From Microbacterium pullorum (GTDB taxonomy: Bacteria; Actinomycetota; Actinomycetes; Actinomycetales; Microbacteriaceae): a DNA stretch of 64,000 nt. The position numbers and the translations under genes were made by a program. How positions within the stretch are numbered: position 1 is the first letter of the stretch; the number at the start of each line of letters is the position of its first letter. The DNA is taken from positions 62,001 to 126,000 of the forward strand of contig NZ_JACSQP010000004.1 of assembly GCF_014836535.1 (NCBI RefSeq). The letters are read 5' to 3'. Shown piece by piece: positions 1,557 to 14,110 of the stretch. A model generated the notes under the pieces. The model searched no databases and was not told the origin of the DNA. It saw only the letters and a program-made list of their open reading frames with translations.

Positions 1557-1774
1557 CAGTCCTCGCCTTCTGCAACACGCCGGCCCGCCGCCGTGGCGAT
1601 GACCCGGGCGCGGTAGTCCACGATCCTGTCGATGACGGCCTCCATCGTCTCGACCACCACGAAGGTGGCGCCGTCGACCATCACGAGGGTGGTGTCGGGG
1701 GTGACCTGGATGCGCTCGATGAGGTCGGGATTCACAGCGAAGGGGGCACGGTTCAGGCGCGTGAGGACGATCAT
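1556..1774 (-). CDS. flbD: FlbD family flagellar protein
   Basis: Small protein (72 aa) of the FlbD family found in Gram-positive flagellar operons, beginning MIVLTRLNRAPFAVNPDLIE. The open frame extends further upstream, but the ATG at 1774 has a good ribosome-binding site (AGAAGGAAGAG) and matches the family's start. It lies between flgE and motA and overlaps motA by 4 bp. The molecular role of the family is poorly defined. The name rests on sequence type and position. Confidence 0.85.
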   Translation of the reverse strand: MIVLTRLNRAPFAVNPDLIERIQVTPDTTLVMVDGATFVVVETMEAVIDRIVDYRARVIATAAGRRVAEGED

Positions 1775-1853
1775 GCGCTCTCTTCCTTCTGGATCCGACG
1801 GGAGCCCACGCGGACGCGGCACCCGTCGGTCGTGCCTGGCTCTGAGTACGACT

Positions 1854-1899
1854 GTCGGCCGACGGCGCGCATCGGTAAGGGGCGCGCCGTCGGCCGGAC
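1854..1899 (-). terminator. Large inverted repeat between flgE and flbD
   Basis: Two 16-base arms (1855-1870 and 1882-1897) pair at 15 of 16 positions around an 11-base loop. The hairpin starts about 8 nt after the flgE stop codon on the transcribed strand and about 80 nt before flbD. There is no run of T, so it may be a partial terminator, an mRNA-stabilising 3' end for flgE, or an attenuator that sets lower motAB expression. Confidence 0.55.
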
Positions 1900-1904
1900 C
1901 GGCG

Positions 1905-3062
1905 TCAGCGCTTGAGGTTCGTCAGCTCCTGCAGCACCTCGTCGCTCGTGGTGATGATGCGGGCGTTGGCCTGGAAGCCGCGCTGGGCGACGATGAGGTT
2001 GGTGAACTCCTGCGAGAGGTCGACGTTCGACATCTCCAGTGCTCCGCTGACGAGCGAGCCCATGCCGTCGGCGCCGGCGGCGCCCACGGCGGCCTCACCG
2101 GAGTTCGCGCCGGCGCGGTACTGCGACGCGCCGGCCTTCTCGAGCCCTTCGGGGTTGTCGAACGATGCCAGCGCCACCTGGGCGAGCACCTGCGAGGCGC
2201 CGTTGCTGAACGCGCCGATGAGGCTGCCATCGCCCGAGATCGTGTACGACACGAGGCTCCCCGGGGCGCGACCGTTCTGCTCGCCGATCGCGATGGTGCG
2301 CAGGTCCGCGAAGCCGGTGACAGCCGAGAGGTCGACGGTGATGCCGCCCGAGACGAGGGATGCCGCACCGGGCAGCTTGCCGTCGGTGAACGCCAGCGCC
2401 GTCGTGGTGGTGCCGTCGGTGACGTCCCATCCGGCGGTGGTGCGGGTGAAGGTGAGGGCCAGCTGGCTGGCCGTGCCGACCGCGTCGTACACGGTGATGT
2501 CGCGCACGAGGGACTCGCCCACGGCGGCATCCGACGGCAGGTTGCCCTTGACGCTCGCGGCGCTGGTGGCCTGCGCGGGAGCGGTGGCGGCGATGGGCAG
2601 GGAGATGTCGGAGGTGGGACCGCCGGCGGCGATCTGACCGTCGACCGCCGTCCACCCCTGCACGAGGGAGCCGTCGCTGGTGACCATGCGCCCGGCCGCG
2701 TCGAACGAGAACGCGCCGTTGCGGGTGTAGAGGTTCTCGGCGCCGTTGCGCACGACGAAGAACCCGTCACCGGCGATCATGAGGTCGGTGGGCACGCCGG
2801 TGGCCTGCGGGGAGCCGGCGGTGAAGTTGGTGCGGATGCCGGCGACCTGCACGCCCAGACCCACCTGGGCCGGGTTCGTGCCACCGGCACCGTCCTGGGC
2901 GGCGCGGGAGTTCTGCACGATCTGCGACAGGGTGTCCTGGAACTGCACGGAGCCGGCCTTGAAGCCGATCGTGTTGACGTTGGCGATGTTGTTGCCCGTC
3001 ACGTCGAGCATGGTCTGGTGGGAGCGGAGGCCGGAGATGCCGGCATAGAGCGAACGGAGCAT
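1905..3062 (-). CDS. flgE: Flagellar hook protein FlgE
   Basis: Structural subunit of the hook, the universal joint outside the cell. It is 385 aa. The N-terminus MLRSLYAGISGLRSHQ followed by DVTGNNIANVNTIGFK is the flagellar rod/hook signature (PF00460 type). A central Ser/Thr/Ala-rich domain follows, and the C-terminus VDLSQEFTNLIVAQRGFQAN is the matching C-terminal hook/basal-body motif. It directly follows flgD, its capping protein. ATG start at 3062. Confidence 0.95.
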   Translation of the reverse strand: MLRSLYAGISGLRSHQTMLDVTGNNIANVNTIGFKAGSVQFQDTLSQIVQNSRAAQDGAGGTNPAQVGLGVQVAGIRTNFTAGSPQATGVPTDLMIAGDGFFVVRNGAENLYTRNGAFSFDAAGRMVTSDGSLVQGWTAVDGQIAAGGPTSDISLPIAATAPAQATSAASVKGNLPSDAAVGESLVRDITVYDAVGTASQLALTFTRTTAGWDVTDGTTTTALAFTDGKLPGAASLVSGGITVDLSAVTGFADLRTIAIGEQNGRAPGSLVSYTISGDGSLIGAFSNGASQVLAQVALASFDNPEGLEKAGASQYRAGANSGEAAVGAAGADGMGSLVSGALEMSNVDLSQEFTNLIVAQRGFQANARIITTSDEVLQELTNLKR

Positions 3063-3083
3063 GAGAAGCCCTTCTGGTGCGGG

Positions 3084-3506
3084 TCAGGAAGCGGGGGGAG
3101 AGGTGACGCCGGAGATGGCGTCGAGGGCGACGGTCTTGTCGCCGATGGTGACGGTGGGCACGCCCTGTTCGAACGACACCTTCGAGACGAGTCCCGACTG
3201 GGTGGTGCCGTCGACGTCGACGTAGGAGGCGTGCTGGCCGACGAGCGCGGCGGCGGCCTGGCGCATGCTGAGCGCGAAGTTCTCGCTGAACGTGTCGGTG
3301 AGTGCGGTGAGCTGCTCCATCATCGCGAGCTGCGTGGTCTGCGCCATCATGTCGTTGGTGTCCATGGGCGAGCTCGGGTCCTGGTTCTTCATCTGGGCGA
3401 CCAGGAGGCTCAGGAACACCTCGGCATCCATCGTCTGCTTCGGTGGGGACGCGGCGAGGGCCTGCGGCGCGGAGCCGGCGGCCGAGACGGAATCGACGGG
3501 GGGCAT
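3084..3506 (-). CDS. flgD: Hook-capping protein FlgD
   Basis: Scaffold needed to polymerise the hook. The ATG at 3506 is chosen because it has an AAGGAG site and gives 140 aa with the N-terminal FlgD signature (DAEVFLSLLVAQMKNQDPSSP, about residues 26-45, then MAQTTQLAMMEQL). The open frame runs further upstream but is proline-rich shadow sequence of the neighbouring gene. A short C-terminal beta segment follows (TVTIGDKTVALDAISGV). The gene lies 13 bp after the fliK-like gene and just before flgE. Confidence 0.92.
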   Translation of the reverse strand: MPPVDSVSAAGSAPQALAASPPKQTMDAEVFLSLLVAQMKNQDPSSPMDTNDMMAQTTQLAMMEQLTALTDTFSENFALSMRQAAAALVGQHASYVDVDGTTQSGLVSKVSFEQGVPTVTIGDKTVALDAISGVTSPPAS

Positions 3507-3519
3507 GGTGCTCCTTCGG

Positions 3520-5001
3520 TCAGGCGAACAGGTCGATGCCCGAGCCGACGGCGGCGGGGGCGGGTGCGGGGACGGGGGAGGGGGTGTCGGGCGCGGCGTC
3601 GCGGTCGCCGCGGGAGGTGGCGCCGGAGCTCCCCGCACCGGACTGGCCGGACGAGGTGGAGCCGGCGGCCGACCCGAAGCCGCCCGCCCACGCTGCGCCC
3701 GACGGGTTCTGGTTCTGGTGCTGCCCGTTGCCGGTGGCCGACGTGTCGCCGGCGGCGAGCACCACCGACGAGCTCGCGGCGAGTCCGGCGAGGTCGCGGC
3801 GCAGATCCACCAGCAGCGAGCGCAGGGCTTCGCGACCGGTCTCGGTGGGGGCGGCGAGCTCGATGACGATGGATGACCCGGTGATCTGCGCCTTCACCGT
3901 GACCGGGCCGAGGTTGTCCGGCGACACCGTGAGGGTGAGGGTGTGCTCCCCCTCGCCGGCGCCGGCCAGCGACAGCACGGGCGGCGTCACCTGCTGCGCG
4001 AACGGGGTGCGGTTGGCCGGGGCGGCCGCGGCCGGCGGCGGGGCGGCAGCGACCGGCTCGGCGGCCGCGGGCGCCGCCGATGCCACGCTTGCCGCAGCCA
4101 CGGCCGCGGCGGCGTCTGCGGCGCTGCGCTCGGTGCCGGGCGCGGGCATCGCCCGCGCGGCGGAGGACATCAGCGTGGCGCCTGAGGTCGCGGCTGCGGC
4201 TGCGGCGACCAGCGGGGTGGCGACCGGGGTGGCGGACGTGGCGACGGCCGGGTCGGCGGCCGGCGGCGGGCCGGCGGCCGCGGCCAGGCCGGCGGCCGCG
4301 GCAGGGGAGCCCGCGGGGGTCACGGCGGCGAACATCGACGCGACGCGCGCTCCGGCGGACGCGGCGGCGGAGGCGGGCGAGAGGGACGCCATCAGGGGCG
4401 CGGCGGCCGCGGCGAACACGGACGCCGCGTTGACGGCGGGGGTCGCCGCGGCGGCGATCTCGGCACGGGACGGCACGACGCGCCGGATCGTCTGGATGTC
4501 GGCGTCGGTGAGGTAGTTGTTGCGCAGCTCGACGTTCTTGCCCGGGCTGGGGGCGTGGATGATCTTGCCGTCGCCGGCATAGATCACGATGTGCTTCTCG
4601 CCGTTGGTGACCAGCAGATCGCCCGGGCGCGCCTCGGCGAGGGAGCCCACCTCGACGCCGATGTCGGCCTGATCCTGCACGACGCGGGGCGCGTCGATGC
4701 CGAGGTCGGCGAGCACGCGCTGCACGAGGCCCGAGCAGTCCATGCCGCTGGCATCCTCGCCGCCGAAGACGTAGGGGACGCCCAGGTAGTTCTTCGCCCG
4801 CGCGACGACGTCCTCGCCGCTGACCGTGCCGCCCGCCGGCACCGCGGCGCCGATGACGTCCTGCACAGCGGTGGCGAACGCACCGGCGCTCGTGCTCGTG
4901 GTCGCGCCGGCGGCGGCGTTCGCCGTGACCGGCTCGGGCGCGAGCGTGCGGATGCGGCTCTGGATCTCATCCACGCGCGCGAGGACGTTGACGATGCTCA
5001 C
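3520..5001 (-). CDS. fliK: NlpC/P60 peptidase fused to FliK-type hook-length control domain
   Basis: One 493-aa frame joins two activities. Residues about 60-165 form a C40 (NlpC/P60) peptidoglycan endopeptidase: VVARAKNYLGVPYVFGG, then catalytic Cys89 in MDCSGLV, His137 in KHIVIYAG and His149 as a likely third residue. A long Ala/Pro-rich linker (about 170-340) follows. Residues about 350-420 resemble the FliK/Flg_hook C-terminal domain (TLTVSPDNLGPVTVKAQI). The tail is low complexity, as is usual for secreted FliK. No signal peptide is visible, which fits export by the flagellar apparatus. The GTG start at 5001 has GAGGAGG ahead of it and overlaps the fliJ stop as GTGA. FliK sets hook length; the hydrolase could open the wall for the rod. 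The fusion is seen directly, the combined role is inferred. Confidence 0.88.
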   Translation of the reverse strand: MSIVNVLARVDEIQSRIRTLAPEPVTANAAAGATTSTSAGAFATAVQDVIGAAVPAGGTVSGEDVVARAKNYLGVPYVFGGEDASGMDCSGLVQRVLADLGIDAPRVVQDQADIGVEVGSLAEARPGDLLVTNGEKHIVIYAGDGKIIHAPSPGKNVELRNNYLTDADIQTIRRVVPSRAEIAAAATPAVNAASVFAAAAAPLMASLSPASAAASAGARVASMFAAVTPAGSPAAAAGLAAAAGPPPAADPAVATSATPVATPLVAAAAAATSGATLMSSAARAMPAPGTERSAADAAAAVAAASVASAAPAAAEPVAAAPPPAAAAPANRTPFAQQVTPPVLSLAGAGEGEHTLTLTVSPDNLGPVTVKAQITGSSIVIELAAPTETGREALRSLLVDLRRDLAGLAASSSVVLAAGDTSATGNGQHQNQNPSGAAWAGGFGSAAGSTSSGQSGAGSSGATSRGDRDAAPDTPSPVPAPAPAAVGSGIDLFA

Positions 5002-5420
5002 GATGCCTCCTCGGTGCGGGATCTGACCCCGATCTCGTCCAGTTCGATCTGTTCCACGTGGAGCTCGCGTGCGAGTTCCCGGCGGGCGTGGGCCTCGGCG
5101 AGCAGGGCGAGTCCCCGCTCGTCGATGCGGGTGGCGGTGTGCTGCTCGCGCGCCTCCGCCACGGCCGCCTCCTGCATCTCCGCGAGGGTGCGCAGGTCCG
5201 CCAGCATGCTGCGCGAGGCCACGCGGCTGGCCGCGAGGGCCGCGAGCGCGCGCACGTCCACGGCCTCGTCGACCGAGGTCGACAGTGCCGCCCGCAGCTG
5301 CCGCTCGCGGGCCTCGGTGCGCACGTGCTCCATCGAAGCGCGGGACAGATGCTCGGCGGCGGCACGCTCTTGGATGCTGCGCACGCGCAGCAGCCCGGCC
5401 AGGCGGAAGGGGCGGCTCAT
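4998..5420 (-). CDS. fliJ: Flagellar export protein FliJ
   Basis: Cytoplasmic component of the flagellar export apparatus, expected to sit in the FliI ATPase ring. It is 140 aa, almost wholly charged helix (coiled coil), beginning MSRPFRLAGLLRVRSIQE and rich in Ala, Arg and Glu. It overlaps fliI upstream and the NlpC-FliK gene downstream by 4 bp each. Sequence conservation of FliJ is low, so the name rests on the coiled-coil character, length and position after fliI. Confidence 0.85.
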   Translation of the reverse strand: MSRPFRLAGLLRVRSIQERAAAEHLSRASMEHVRTEARERQLRAALSTSVDEAVDVRALAALAASRVASRSMLADLRTLAEMQEAAVAEAREQHTATRIDERGLALLAEAHARRELARELHVEQIELDEIGVRSRTEEAS

Positions 5421-6715
5421 GAGAGGTCTCCGAAGTCCATGACGAGGGCGCGCAGCCGCTGCCACGAACTCTCCGCGGGGGCGTGTTCGTCCAACGACTG
5501 TGTGAGGAACTGCTCGATCGTGCGCTCGTGGGTGAGTGCGGCATCCACGCGCAGGTCGGCGCCGGCCCGATACGCACCGATGCCGATGAGGTCGTGCGCC
5601 CCCTGCCGTGCCGACAGCACCGTGCGCAGCGCCGTGGCGAGCTGCTGCTGCTCGCCGGTGGCGACCTTGCCGGCCAGGCGTGACACCGAGGCGAGCACGT
5701 CGATGGCCGGGTGGTGCCCGGTGAGGGCGAGGGAGCGGTCCAGCACGATGTGGCCGTCGAGGATGGAGCGCACGGTGTCGGCGACGGGCTCGTTGTGGTC
5801 GTCGCCGTCGACGAGCACGGTGTACACCCCGGTGATGGAACCCTGCCGGTCGTTGCCGGCGCGCTCCAGCAGGTTCGCCAGCACGGGGAACGTCGACGGC
5901 GGATACCCGCGTGTGGCCGGCGGCTCGCCCGCCGCCAGCCCGATCTCGCGCTGGGCCATCGCGACGCGGGTCAGGGAGTCCATCATCAGCATCACGTGCC
6001 CGCCGCCGTCGCGGAACGCCTCGGCGATGCGGGTGGCGGTGAAGGCGGCCCGCAGTCGCGCCATCGCCGGTTCGTCCGAGGTGGAGACCACGACGACCGA
6101 GCGCGCGAGACCCTCGGGACCGAGGTCGTCCTCGATGAACTCCCGCACCTCCCTGCCGCGCTCGCCGACGAGGGCGATGACGTTGAGGTCGGCGGCGGAG
6201 CCGCGGGCGATCATCGACAGCAGCGATGACTTGCCGACCCCGGATCCGGCGAACAGACCCATGCGCTGACCGCGGCCGATGGGCGTGAGGGTGTCGATCG
6301 CACGCACCCCCGACGAGAGCGGGACGTCGATGCGGGCGCGTTCCATCACCGGCGGTGTGTCGTGGCCGAGCGACACCCGGGTCGCCTCGATGGGGCCGCG
6401 GTCGTCGATCGGGCGGCCGAGGCCGTCGATGACGCGACCGAGCACCCCCGGGCCCACCGGCACGCTCAGCCCGCCCGAGAGCGGGGTGACACGGTCGCCG
6501 ACACGCAGCCCGGTCGTCGCCGACAGGGGCATGCAGCGCAGCGCGCCGCGCTCGGCGGCGACGACTTCGGCATCCACCCGTCCGCCGATCGTGATGAGGT
6601 CGCCCACGGCCGCGCCGATGCCGCGCACCTCGACACCCAGCCCGAAGATGCGCGACACGCTGCCGGAGCGCTCCGGACGGGCGGCGTCGAGCACGGCGGC
6701 GGGCCAGGCGATCAT
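5417..6715 (-). CDS. fliI: Flagellum-specific ATPase FliI
   Basis: ATPase that energises loading of flagellar export substrates. At 432 aa it is of normal length for the F1-beta-like family. The Walker A motif is at about residues 157-164 (GSGVGKSS), followed by GERGREVREF, MLMMDSLTR (Walker B) and GEPPATRGYPPSTF, all hallmark stretches. It overlaps fliH upstream and fliJ downstream as ATGA. FliH and FliJ next door are its regulator and central stalk. Confidence 0.96.
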   Translation of the reverse strand: MIAWPAAVLDAARPERSGSVSRIFGLGVEVRGIGAAVGDLITIGGRVDAEVVAAERGALRCMPLSATTGLRVGDRVTPLSGGLSVPVGPGVLGRVIDGLGRPIDDRGPIEATRVSLGHDTPPVMERARIDVPLSSGVRAIDTLTPIGRGQRMGLFAGSGVGKSSLLSMIARGSAADLNVIALVGERGREVREFIEDDLGPEGLARSVVVVSTSDEPAMARLRAAFTATRIAEAFRDGGGHVMLMMDSLTRVAMAQREIGLAAGEPPATRGYPPSTFPVLANLLERAGNDRQGSITGVYTVLVDGDDHNEPVADTVRSILDGHIVLDRSLALTGHHPAIDVLASVSRLAGKVATGEQQQLATALRTVLSARQGAHDLIGIGAYRAGADLRVDAALTHERTIEQFLTQSLDEHAPAESSWQRLRALVMDFGDLS

Positions 6716-11723: not shown

Positions 11724-13099
11724 TTCGAACTCGACGGGTTGAGGGCGTTGAGCTGCGAGGTCAGGTAGTCGGATTGCGACTGCAGGCGCGAGAGCATGGT
11801 CTCGAGTGACGCATAGGTGCGCTCGAGGGTGGAGCGCCGCATCTCCAGGCGCACGTCCCAGCGTTCCAGCTGGTCGGCGATGCGGTTCACCTCGCCCTCC
11901 TGGCCGGTGATGCGGGCGGTGACGAGGCCGTCGTACTTGTCGGAGTACTGGTCGGTGGTCTGCTGCACGCGCGCCGCGACCCCGGCGAAGACCGCCTCCA
12001 CCGATGCCTCGTCGGCCTCGAGCGCGGCGGTGAACTTCTTCTCGTCGAAGCTCAGCACTCCGTAGCGGTCGATCGAGATGCCGATCGTCGAGGGCGAGAC
12101 CGCGTCGACGGGGTGCTGCACCGCATTGGTCAGCGCCAGCTGCAGTGCGCGCACGGTGCTGTCGCCGGTGAAGACGCCGAGCGTCGTGCTTCCGCCGGCG
12201 GTGGTGGGCGCGGTGGCTTTCGATCCGTTCGCGATGCCGGTGAGCACGGCCTTGATCTGCGAGACGAACTCTCCCGCGGCCTTGGCGCGCGCCGCCGGGT
12301 CGGCCGACACCGAGACGGTGATCGGTGCGGTGGAGGCCTTCGACACCGTGATGTCCACGCCCGGGAAGAGGTCGGTGAACGTGTTGTCGTCGGAGGTCAC
12401 GGTCATCTCCGCCGGGGTGCCGGCCCACAGCCGCACCTGCGCGTCTTGGCCCTGCGTGATGACGGCGGCGCCCGGCTCGGCGGCGAGATCGGTCGCCGTG
12501 CCGGCGGTGACGGACGCGGCATCGCCGCTGTAGAGGCGGAAGCTGCCCTGGGCGCCGGTCTGCGTCGCGGTGATCTGCAGGCGGAAGAGAGGCTGGCCGT
12601 CCGCATCGGTACCGGCCGACACGGCAGAGGCGACGATGCCGGCGCCCGCGTCGGTGAGGGCACGGGCGACATCTGCCGGTGCCGACGATGACGGGGTCAC
12701 CTCGACGAGTTCGCCTGCCGCGTTCTGGATCGTGAGGACGAGGGGGTCGCCGGTGAAGGCGCCGGTGGTCCGCGTGACGACGGTGTGCGCCGTGGCGGTG
12801 CGGTCGACGACGATGTCGCTCGAGACCGCGGCGGATCCCGCGGCCGCGGTGACGGCGAGGGAGGGGTCGGAGCTGCTCGTGCGCACCTGCGCGACGGCGC
12901 CGACGCCGGTGGCATCCTTGGCCGAGGTGAACAGGCCCTGCAGCGCCGTGTTGAGCGAGCGCAGCTGCGTGATGATCACCTGCCGGTCGTCGGACTTCGC
13001 CTTGAGCAACGTGCGCGGGATCGCCTCGACGTTCATCAGCGCATCGATGATCGCCTTGGTGTCGAGGCCGGAGGCGAGTCCGTCGATTTGGAGACCCAT
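11720..13099 (-). CDS. fliD: Flagellar filament cap protein FliD
   Basis: Cap at the filament tip that folds incoming flagellin. It is 459 aa, with N-terminal FliD domain MGLQIDGLASGLDTKAIIDALM and C-terminal coiled-coil domain (TARITGQEGEVNRIADQLERW...MLSRLQSQSDYLTSQL). The ATG at 13099 has an AGGAAGGG site. The sigma-28 promoter lies 58 bp upstream. First gene of the fliD-fliS-fliT-like operon. Confidence 0.95.
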   Translation of the reverse strand: MGLQIDGLASGLDTKAIIDALMNVEAIPRTLLKAKSDDRQVIITQLRSLNTALQGLFTSAKDATGVGAVAQVRTSSSDPSLAVTAAAGSAAVSSDIVVDRTATAHTVVTRTTGAFTGDPLVLTIQNAAGELVEVTPSSSAPADVARALTDAGAGIVASAVSAGTDADGQPLFRLQITATQTGAQGSFRLYSGDAASVTAGTATDLAAEPGAAVITQGQDAQVRLWAGTPAEMTVTSDDNTFTDLFPGVDITVSKASTAPITVSVSADPAARAKAAGEFVSQIKAVLTGIANGSKATAPTTAGGSTTLGVFTGDSTVRALQLALTNAVQHPVDAVSPSTIGISIDRYGVLSFDEKKFTAALEADEASVEAVFAGVAARVQQTTDQYSDKYDGLVTARITGQEGEVNRIADQLERWDVRLEMRRSTLERTYASLETMLSRLQSQSDYLTSQLNALNPSSSK

Positions 13100-13157
13100 C
13101 TGCGCCCTTCCTGTCGTCGTGCGGCTCGGCGGGAGATCCCGAGGTGTCCGGAATCTT

Positions 13158-13185
13158 CTATCGGCCGATCGGCGCCGGGCGTTAG
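13158..13185 (-). promoter_or_regulatory. Sigma-28 promoter for fliD
   Basis: On the minus strand CTAAC-GCCC, 11 bases, then GCCGATAG: exact spacing of the sigma-28 consensus. The TAA of the -35 element is the stop codon of fliA (13182-13184), so the gene for the sigma factor ends inside a promoter that the sigma factor should read. Confidence 0.85.
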
Positions 13186-13988
13186 CTTGCGGCGGCGGTC
13201 GCGACGAGCGGGACGCCCTGGCGGGGCGGGGTTGCCGCGGCGATGCGGGAGAAGTACGCCTCCCGCGTCGAGTCGGACACTCGCGAAACGGTGGCGGTGC
13301 CGCTGTCGAGGTAGAAGCGCTCGAGTGCGTCGCGCAGCAGGCGCACCGCCTCGGCGCGCTGCTGCGAGACGGCGGAGTGCGAGACGCCGAGCTCTTCGGC
13401 GAGATCCTTCACGGGGCGCTCGTCGATGTAGACCGCCTGAACGATCGCGCGCATCCGCTCGGGGAGGGCGGCCACGGCGCGGGCGAGCACCCCGCGTCGT
13501 TCCTGCAGGGCGGCCGATTCCGCCGGAAGGGCGATGGCGGCCGGCACATCGAGCACGGCGGTGTCATCGAGGCTCGTCACCGTGCGGGCGGCGTCGTTGA
13601 GCGATTCCACGACGGCGTCGCGGGAGAGCCCCAGGGTCGTGGCGATCTCGTCGGCGGTGGCGGTGCGCCCGAGCGCCGCGGTGAGGGTCTCCCGCACCGC
13701 GGTGATCTCCTTGATGCGCTTGCGGATGCCACGGCTCGCCCAGTCCATCGAGCGCATCTCGTCGGCGAACGCGCCGAGGATGCGCCGGCGGGCGTACGCT
13801 CCGAACGGGACGCCGAGTGTCGGATCGAACGCCTCCGCCGCCGTCACGAGGGCGAGGGCACCGGCCGAGGCGAGTTCCTCGCGCGGAACGTGCGTCGCTC
13901 TGGCGTGGACGTCGCGGGCGAGGTAGCCCACGAGCGGCAGGTTCTCCTCGATGAGGCGATTGCGCTCCGCGCGGCCCGGAGTGTGCAA
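13182..13988 (-). CDS. fliA: Sigma-28 RNA polymerase sigma factor (FliA/WhiG type)
   Basis: Alternative sigma factor for motility genes. It has region 2 (LPLVGYLARDVHARATHVPREELASAG...FGAYARRRILGAFADEMRSMDW), region 3 (LGLSRDAVVESL) and region 4 with helix-turn-helix (PVKDLAEELGVSHSAVSQQ), each quoted only in part. The start is uncertain. TTG at 13988 is preferred: it gives 268 aa, near the family length, and follows GAGAAGA. ATGs at 14111 or 14099 would add about 40 atypical residues. Four matching promoters lie in this window. No FlgM-like anti-sigma gene is seen nearby. Confidence 0.9.
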   Translation of the reverse strand: MHTPGRAERNRLIEENLPLVGYLARDVHARATHVPREELASAGALALVTAAEAFDPTLGVPFGAYARRRILGAFADEMRSMDWASRGIRKRIKEITAVRETLTAALGRTATADEIATTLGLSRDAVVESLNDAARTVTSLDDTAVLDVPAAIALPAESAALQERRGVLARAVAALPERMRAIVQAVYIDERPVKDLAEELGVSHSAVSQQRAEAVRLLRDALERFYLDSGTATVSRVSDSTREAYFSRIAAATPPRQGVPLVATAAAS

Positions 13989-14110
13989 GGTAGGTCTTCT
14001 CTCTCGATCTGTGCGGCCGTTCGGTGTTCGCAACGGGCGAGGTGCCGCCGAGGCGGGGAATCTCTGAACCACACGGTATGAATATGAGAAACCTCTCATG
14101 GAATCGGTCA

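Follow-up and report, generated by a model that had tools for sequence, protein, structure and literature searches.

SltF of Rhodobacter sphaeroides is a separate flagellar wall-cutting enzyme with an SLT domain, and is exported by the Sec route. The NlpC/P60 endopeptidases of the RipA/RipC and SagA types are also Sec-exported wall enzymes. FlgJ is described as a flagellum-dedicated peptidoglycan hydrolase whose presumed task is to make way through the wall for the rod (PMC9307174, PMC12153297). FliK is described as secreted intermittently in rod and hook growth, with several molecules per hook, and hook length as depending on the physical length of FliK (PMC13344023, PMC9307174).

The window analysed here, a stretch of 64,000 nucleotides of Microbacterium pullorum, holds at the fliK position one gene encoding both an NlpC/P60 hydrolase and a FliK C-terminal domain. 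Judged from its sequence, the protein would resemble FlgJ of the Salmonella type in being a flagellar wall-cutter, in using flagellar export and in holding two jobs in one protein. However, FlgJ joins a glycosidase to a rod cap whereas the M. pullorum fusion joins an NlpC/P60 peptidase to a hook ruler, and the rod-binding domain of FlgJ was not detected in the M. pullorum genome. The SLT domain of SltF resembles the second domain of many actinobacterial NlpC homologues, but SltF has neither the NlpC domain nor FliK. RipA/RipC-type and SagA-type endopeptidases share the enzyme family, catalytic residues and fold of the hydrolase half, but the N-terminal export end of the M. pullorum enzyme resembles those of early flagellar substrates. 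Canonical FliK has in common with it the C-terminal switch domain, a gene beside flgD and flgE and a low-complexity middle; in the fusion, however, the export-like end and the enzyme of the neighbouring hydrolase gene stand where the relatives' separate FliK has its own N-terminal end. We regard the gene as probably a fusion of a flagellum-dedicated NlpC/P60 endopeptidase with fliK, the product of which would be exported, cut the wall and retain the ruler function. Full-text searches, judged by titles and the starts of abstracts among the matches listed and covering few subscription papers, found no description of a flagellar NlpC/P60 enzyme or of an NlpC-FliK fusion.

A single frame at the fliK position

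The fused gene (3520-5001, minus strand) runs stop-free from a GTG start at 5001 to a TGA stop at 3520 as a single frame of 493 amino acids, and a Shine-Dalgarno-like GAGGAGG, read from the sequence, lies ahead of the start (5006-5012, minus strand). The gene order, all on the minus strand, is fliI (5417-6715), a fliJ-like gene (4998-5420), the fused gene, flgD for the hook cap (3084-3506, N-terminal family match) and a gene for a flgE-type hook protein (1905-3062), which is a rod/hook operon setting. The fliJ-like gene was named from its position after fliI and a match below the Pfam FliJ cut-off (E 0.0039, 17.8 bits vs 28.4), and its stop codon shares bases with the GTG that starts the fused gene. 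The earlier note on this DNA had assigned the gene to the fliK position, and its place between the fliJ-like gene and flgD bears this out.

The description in that note of one 493-aa frame joining NlpC/P60 to a FliK C-terminal domain also held, both domains exceeding their Pfam cut-offs. NLPC_P60 was matched at residues 74-161 (69.9 bits against a cut-off of 23), inside a domain assigned to residues 61-177 (4471-4821, minus strand) from Pfam, alignment and model. The catalytic residues Cys89, His137 and His149, which had been reported as intact, are indeed so, with codons at 4735-4737, 4591-4593 and 4555-4557, respectively. Cys89 and His137 are invariant in 27 aligned sequences, and His149 is present in at least 90% of them. 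In a pattern search among 75 proteins from the family and genus, 73 matched at the catalytic Cys and 74 at the His; the third catalytic position is occupied by His in 66 proteins, by Gln in four, by Glu in three and by Tyr in two. The fused protein of genome G177 (locus L039) carries Glu at the position of His149, where the other five fused proteins have His; the activity of the G177 enzyme is therefore doubtful. An AlphaFold2 model built from an alignment of relatives reached pLDDT 92-98 from residue 61 onward, over the enzyme block. The best solved matches of the modelled hydrolase half in Foldseek were NlpC/P60 peptidases, and comparison with solved sequences likewise matched the first half to NlpC/P60 enzymes. 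Profile, residues and fold of the hydrolase half are thus those of an NlpC/P60 (C40) peptidase, for which cutting of stem peptides is predicted.

The FliK C-terminal domain was placed at residues 333-417 (3751-4005, minus strand) by Pfam, solved-sequence and model comparison. Pfam Flg_hook barely exceeds its cut-off at residues 348-406 (31.6 bits vs 29.8), and in the fused protein of G152 the FliK half falls just below it (29.3 bits). Among solved sequences the second half weakly matches FliK 2rrl (E 3.4e-4). Two solved structures head the matches of the FliK-C model, 2rrl, which is a FliK C-domain (E 1.6e-3), and PscP (E 0.012), no solved structure matching the model at E 0.001 or better. The N-terminus of the fused protein aligns with NlpC genes, and the N-terminal end of the relatives' separate FliK is missing; the gene is therefore described as having the C-terminal domain of FliK at the fliK position, and is not termed an ordinary FliK. 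The distance from start to FliK-C is 297-332 residues in fused proteins (n=5) and has a median of 314 in unfused proteins of the same genus (range 212-608, n=36), but a similar length is not claimed because of this wide spread and because start codons were chosen partly by the FxxxPhi motif.

Between the two domains lies an Ala-rich, low-complexity linker (residues 178-332; 4006-4470, minus strand). Cleavage within it after synthesis or export, leaving hydrolase and ruler to work apart as in relatives, would suit 155 residues of such weak constraint and the use of two proteins by the relatives. We find this rather unlikely, since the FliK N-terminal end is missing and a cytoplasmic cut would therefore deprive the FliK half of any export signal.

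A frameshift or missed stop between the domains, for which the earlier note had singled out 4400-4500, was looked for as well. Third-position GC is 0.92-0.97 in each of eight 60-codon blocks (codons 1-480, the linker among them), and this uniformity gives no sign of a frame break in that interval. No Shine-Dalgarno sequence is visible in the 20 bases preceding any of the eight in-frame start codons within the linker. A frameshift or missed stop was ruled out by the uniform third-position GC, by the same fusion in five other genomes and by the selection acting on each of the two domains. The fusion is confirmed as real and is not a sequencing artefact.

An export-like N-terminal end

The hydropathy range expected of Sec signals served as the yardstick for a Sec-like N-terminus. 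The first 35 residues of the fused protein contain no Sec-like hydrophobic core (maximum window hydropathy 0.95), and across the 27 aligned sequences the N-terminal maximum has a median of 0.92 and a highest value of 1.26. The model predicts, with modest confidence, two helices in the N-terminal 50 residues (3-20 and 38-51), the first falling in the stretch of residues 1-20, MSIVNVLARVDEIQSRIRTL (4942-5001, minus strand). The recognition motif of the export gate is taken by us to be five residues of the form FxxxPhi, lying roughly 30-60 residues in from the start. Bryant and others describe the gate recognition motif of early flagellar substrates, which comprises residues 36-40 in FlgD, and a hydrophobic N-terminal signal that is also needed for FliK export (PMC8983047). 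Alignment, motif counts and comparison with that work point to F42-A-T-A-V46 (4864-4878, minus strand) as a similar motif. Residues 2-7 of the fused protein, SIVNVL, picked out by eye only, lie at the extreme N-terminus.

F42 does not vary among the 27 aligned sequences, despite its position outside the enzyme domain. FxxxPhi is present in 69 of 70 located N-termini, 65 of the 70 having a single Phe in the linker; the other five of the 75 N-termini were not located, one of them being lost at a contig end. When fixed 50-residue stretches before the domain were taken instead, 66 of 74 contained the motif; 500 shuffles gave 9.0 on average and never more than 19, a control that does not amount to a probability as the sequences are related. 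FlgD (FLSLL, 31-35) and FliE (FAQSI, 30-34) of M. pullorum show the same motif layout. FliK N-termini carried the motif in 115 of 118 cases, a count not used as evidence because the motif had partly guided the choice of start codon. The N-terminus of the fused protein fits flagellar type III export.

Fusion is the minority form in the family and genus

PF02120 was present in 92 of 299 genomes of the family Microbacteriaceae and in 46 of 198 genomes of the genus, M. pullorum and G164 belonging to both sets. Mapping of the fusion in relatives, as the earlier note had proposed, was carried out by classing 136 distinct FliK loci according to whether NlpC and FliK-C share one stop-free frame. Six were fused, 69 had NlpC as a separate gene before fliK on the same strand, 53 had no NlpC and 8 were unclassed (seven with the upstream side lost at a contig end, and G009 with no match to the FliK model). 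Fused genes thus exist among relatives as a minority state, and the suggestion that relatives might always have two separate genes did not hold. The 53 loci scored without NlpC have both fliI and fliK; a flagellum can therefore be encoded without the enzyme, which is not universally needed.

The fused genomes are M. pullorum (G000), G411, G306, G381, G152 (Ruicaihuangia caeni) and G177. The assemblies of G411 and G306 consist of one contig each and that of G381 of two, while G177 is fragmented and the front of its fused protein is lost at a contig end. Within the genus alone, 4 loci were fused, 2 separate, 38 without NlpC and 2 unclassed. The 38 of 46 same-genus genomes with FliK that lack a flagellar NlpC gene at the fliK site are found among loci L153-L192 and L333-L336. 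We also collected 80 named loci similar to the fused proteins, from at least 561 candidates. The two genes were separate in 74 and fused in one (Ruicaihuangia caeni), and five ended before fliK; fliI was on the same strand in 79. Since these loci were picked by NlpC, they cannot show absences. Replacement of NlpC by an SLT domain where NlpC is absent was rejected, no SLT match being found in L032-L123, L153-L192 and L223-L302. The fusion is a rare, minority form and a repeated offshoot of separate genes.

The unfused gene in the class and phylum

The NlpC-half profile was run against 345 class genomes, and PF02120 against 345 sampled likewise. The profile matched 334 of its 345 at E 0.001, generic NlpC/P60 proteins included, and position relative to FliK was therefore used as the criterion. 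Reading the two match tables against each other, we found that 35 of 42 FliK-bearing class genomes have an NlpC match of at least 138 bits that shares contig and strand with FliK and lies no more than about 2 kb upstream of it, and these span 12 family codes. The match lies about 8 kb from FliK in G766, and G512, G569, G636, G700, G718 and G818 were left unscored. The open-frame lengths of the two matches differ in 34 of the 35, so that M. pullorum alone is fused among them.

The 30 best-scoring class loci were fetched, 5 from Microbacteriaceae and 25 from outside the family. All 30 have fliI upstream on the same strand (L221 weakly, E 2e-6). An SLT lytic transglycosylase domain is present in the NlpC frame before fliK in 19 of the 25 loci outside the family (L198, L202-L205, L207, L208 and L210 among them; e.g. 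L207:1132-2079, minus strand), and Pfam confirmed it in all three class loci tested. NlpC and SLT in one protein would provide two kinds of wall cut within a flagellar operon. Elsewhere in the phylum PF02120 was found in 34 more genomes, in two only at E 7e-4, and 13 of these have an NlpC match close upstream of FliK on the same strand, none of the 13 being fused by open-frame length. Ten such loci were examined; SLT stands behind NlpC in four, and in L322 (898-1893, plus strand), from another class of the phylum, SLT comes first and NlpC second, before fliK.

The enzyme could instead be a general wall endopeptidase, Sec- or Tat-secreted, whose place in the operon is due to chance or to co-regulation. 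Of the named NCBI families RipC, a wall hydrolase, matches it best, though at 61.8 bits the match is far below the cut-off of 425, and most class genomes have other NlpC/P60 proteins that match the profile. We consider this very unlikely, given that the N-terminus is not Sec-like and its FxxxPhi motif is near-invariant, and that the gene recurs just upstream of FliK across so many family codes of the class. Whole-genome profile searches of 22 family genomes without NlpC at fliK also argue against it, as 18 had no profile match at E 0.001 and four had only weaker ones (at most 116 bits, best E 3e-33, vs 266-295 for full-length flagellar NlpC).

The earlier note had suggested that the fusion would be a different solution from FlgJ. 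The FlgJ rod-binding domain PF10135 was absent from all 42 FliK-bearing class genomes, M. pullorum included, with three control genomes positive. The domain was found in 8 of 34 FliK-bearing genomes from other classes (6 over the cut-off). Two genomes, G1079 and G1011, have PF10135 together with NlpC at fliK; the enzyme therefore did not arise only as a FlgJ replacement. On our best reading the different solution would be the flagellar NlpC/P60 gene, which usually stands alone before fliK, and not the fusion itself, a rare offshoot of it. The parent would, again as the best reading, be a peptidoglycan hydrolase exported by the flagellum, similar to FlgJ in its working but unrelated to it. The earlier interpretation is in this way partly supported: the fusion is real, as a rare variant of a widespread flagellar hydrolase.

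Origins and selection

M. pullorum groups with G411 and G306 in a clade that has full support (100/100), and the fusion was therefore inherited among them. G381 falls outside this clade, although a single origin of the four genus fusions was not rejected (p-AU 0.0857). A single origin of the five placeable fusions was rejected once G152 was included (p-AU 0.0016, for a group named after the trees had been seen); G177 was left out of the trees as fliI is missing from its contig. The number of origins is at least two and at most four. Descent from a fused ancestor was considered for a clade of 17 genomes without NlpC. The clade is nested among the fused rows by FliI alone, but not clearly so by the joined alignment, and holding 13 of its members with the four fused rows was not rejected (p-AU 0.202).

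Ratios of dN to dS were worked out from dN and dS by a simple counting method for M. pullorum against the fused G411 and G306, respectively. Conservation within the fused gene is highest in the NlpC domain (92% and 84% identity, dN/dS about 0.10 and 0.27), followed by FliK-C (70% and 60% identity, dN/dS 0.32 and 0.33), the N-terminal 60 residues (dN/dS 0.45 and 0.47) and the linker (0.63 and 0.77). Both domains are under purifying selection in the fused relatives, which suggests that they are kept for function.

These values bear on whether the hydrolase half has any flagellar work at all. Loss of a stop codon might have been tolerated in a packed operon, with only the FliK half working, and the rarity of the fusion (6/136), the overlap of adjoining genes and the many relatives without the enzyme are in keeping with this. 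An idle hydrolase is nevertheless unlikely, as the NlpC domain is better conserved than any other part, five of the six fused genes keep all three catalytic residues and the fusion arose at least twice.

Proposed working of the fused protein

If the gene is the fusion of a flagellar endopeptidase with fliK that we favour, the type III export end would be that of the hydrolase part (a short helix and the FxxxPhi motif) instead of that of FliK. While rod and hook grow, the polypeptide would pass unfolded through the flagellar channel. Its NlpC domain would emerge first, fold outside and cut the stem peptides of the wall that surrounds the lengthening rod; the FliK C-domain would reach the export gate last and perform the length check and substrate switch. 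Because FliK molecules leave again and again in the course of assembly, one wall cutter would also be delivered with each ruler. More tentatively, and as a possibility that we hold to be short of probable, the flagellum-exported cutter of Actinomycetota (NlpC/P60, often with SLT) may do the job of FlgJ and have been welded to the ruler in some lineages, where the folded enzyme may anchor the tape measure outside and the 155-residue linker may be the real ruler. For the job of opening the thick wall, a hydrolase gene that is retained next to fliK and whose product has an export-like end is a direct candidate. The fusions offer natural experiments, with C89 for wall cutting in the ruler and linker against hook length for what the ruler measures.

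Opposite the flagellar genes of the window, very long open frames occur at 1632-3866 (plus strand, 744 aa) and 12570-14081 (plus strand, 503 aa); these are probably a by-product of high GC.
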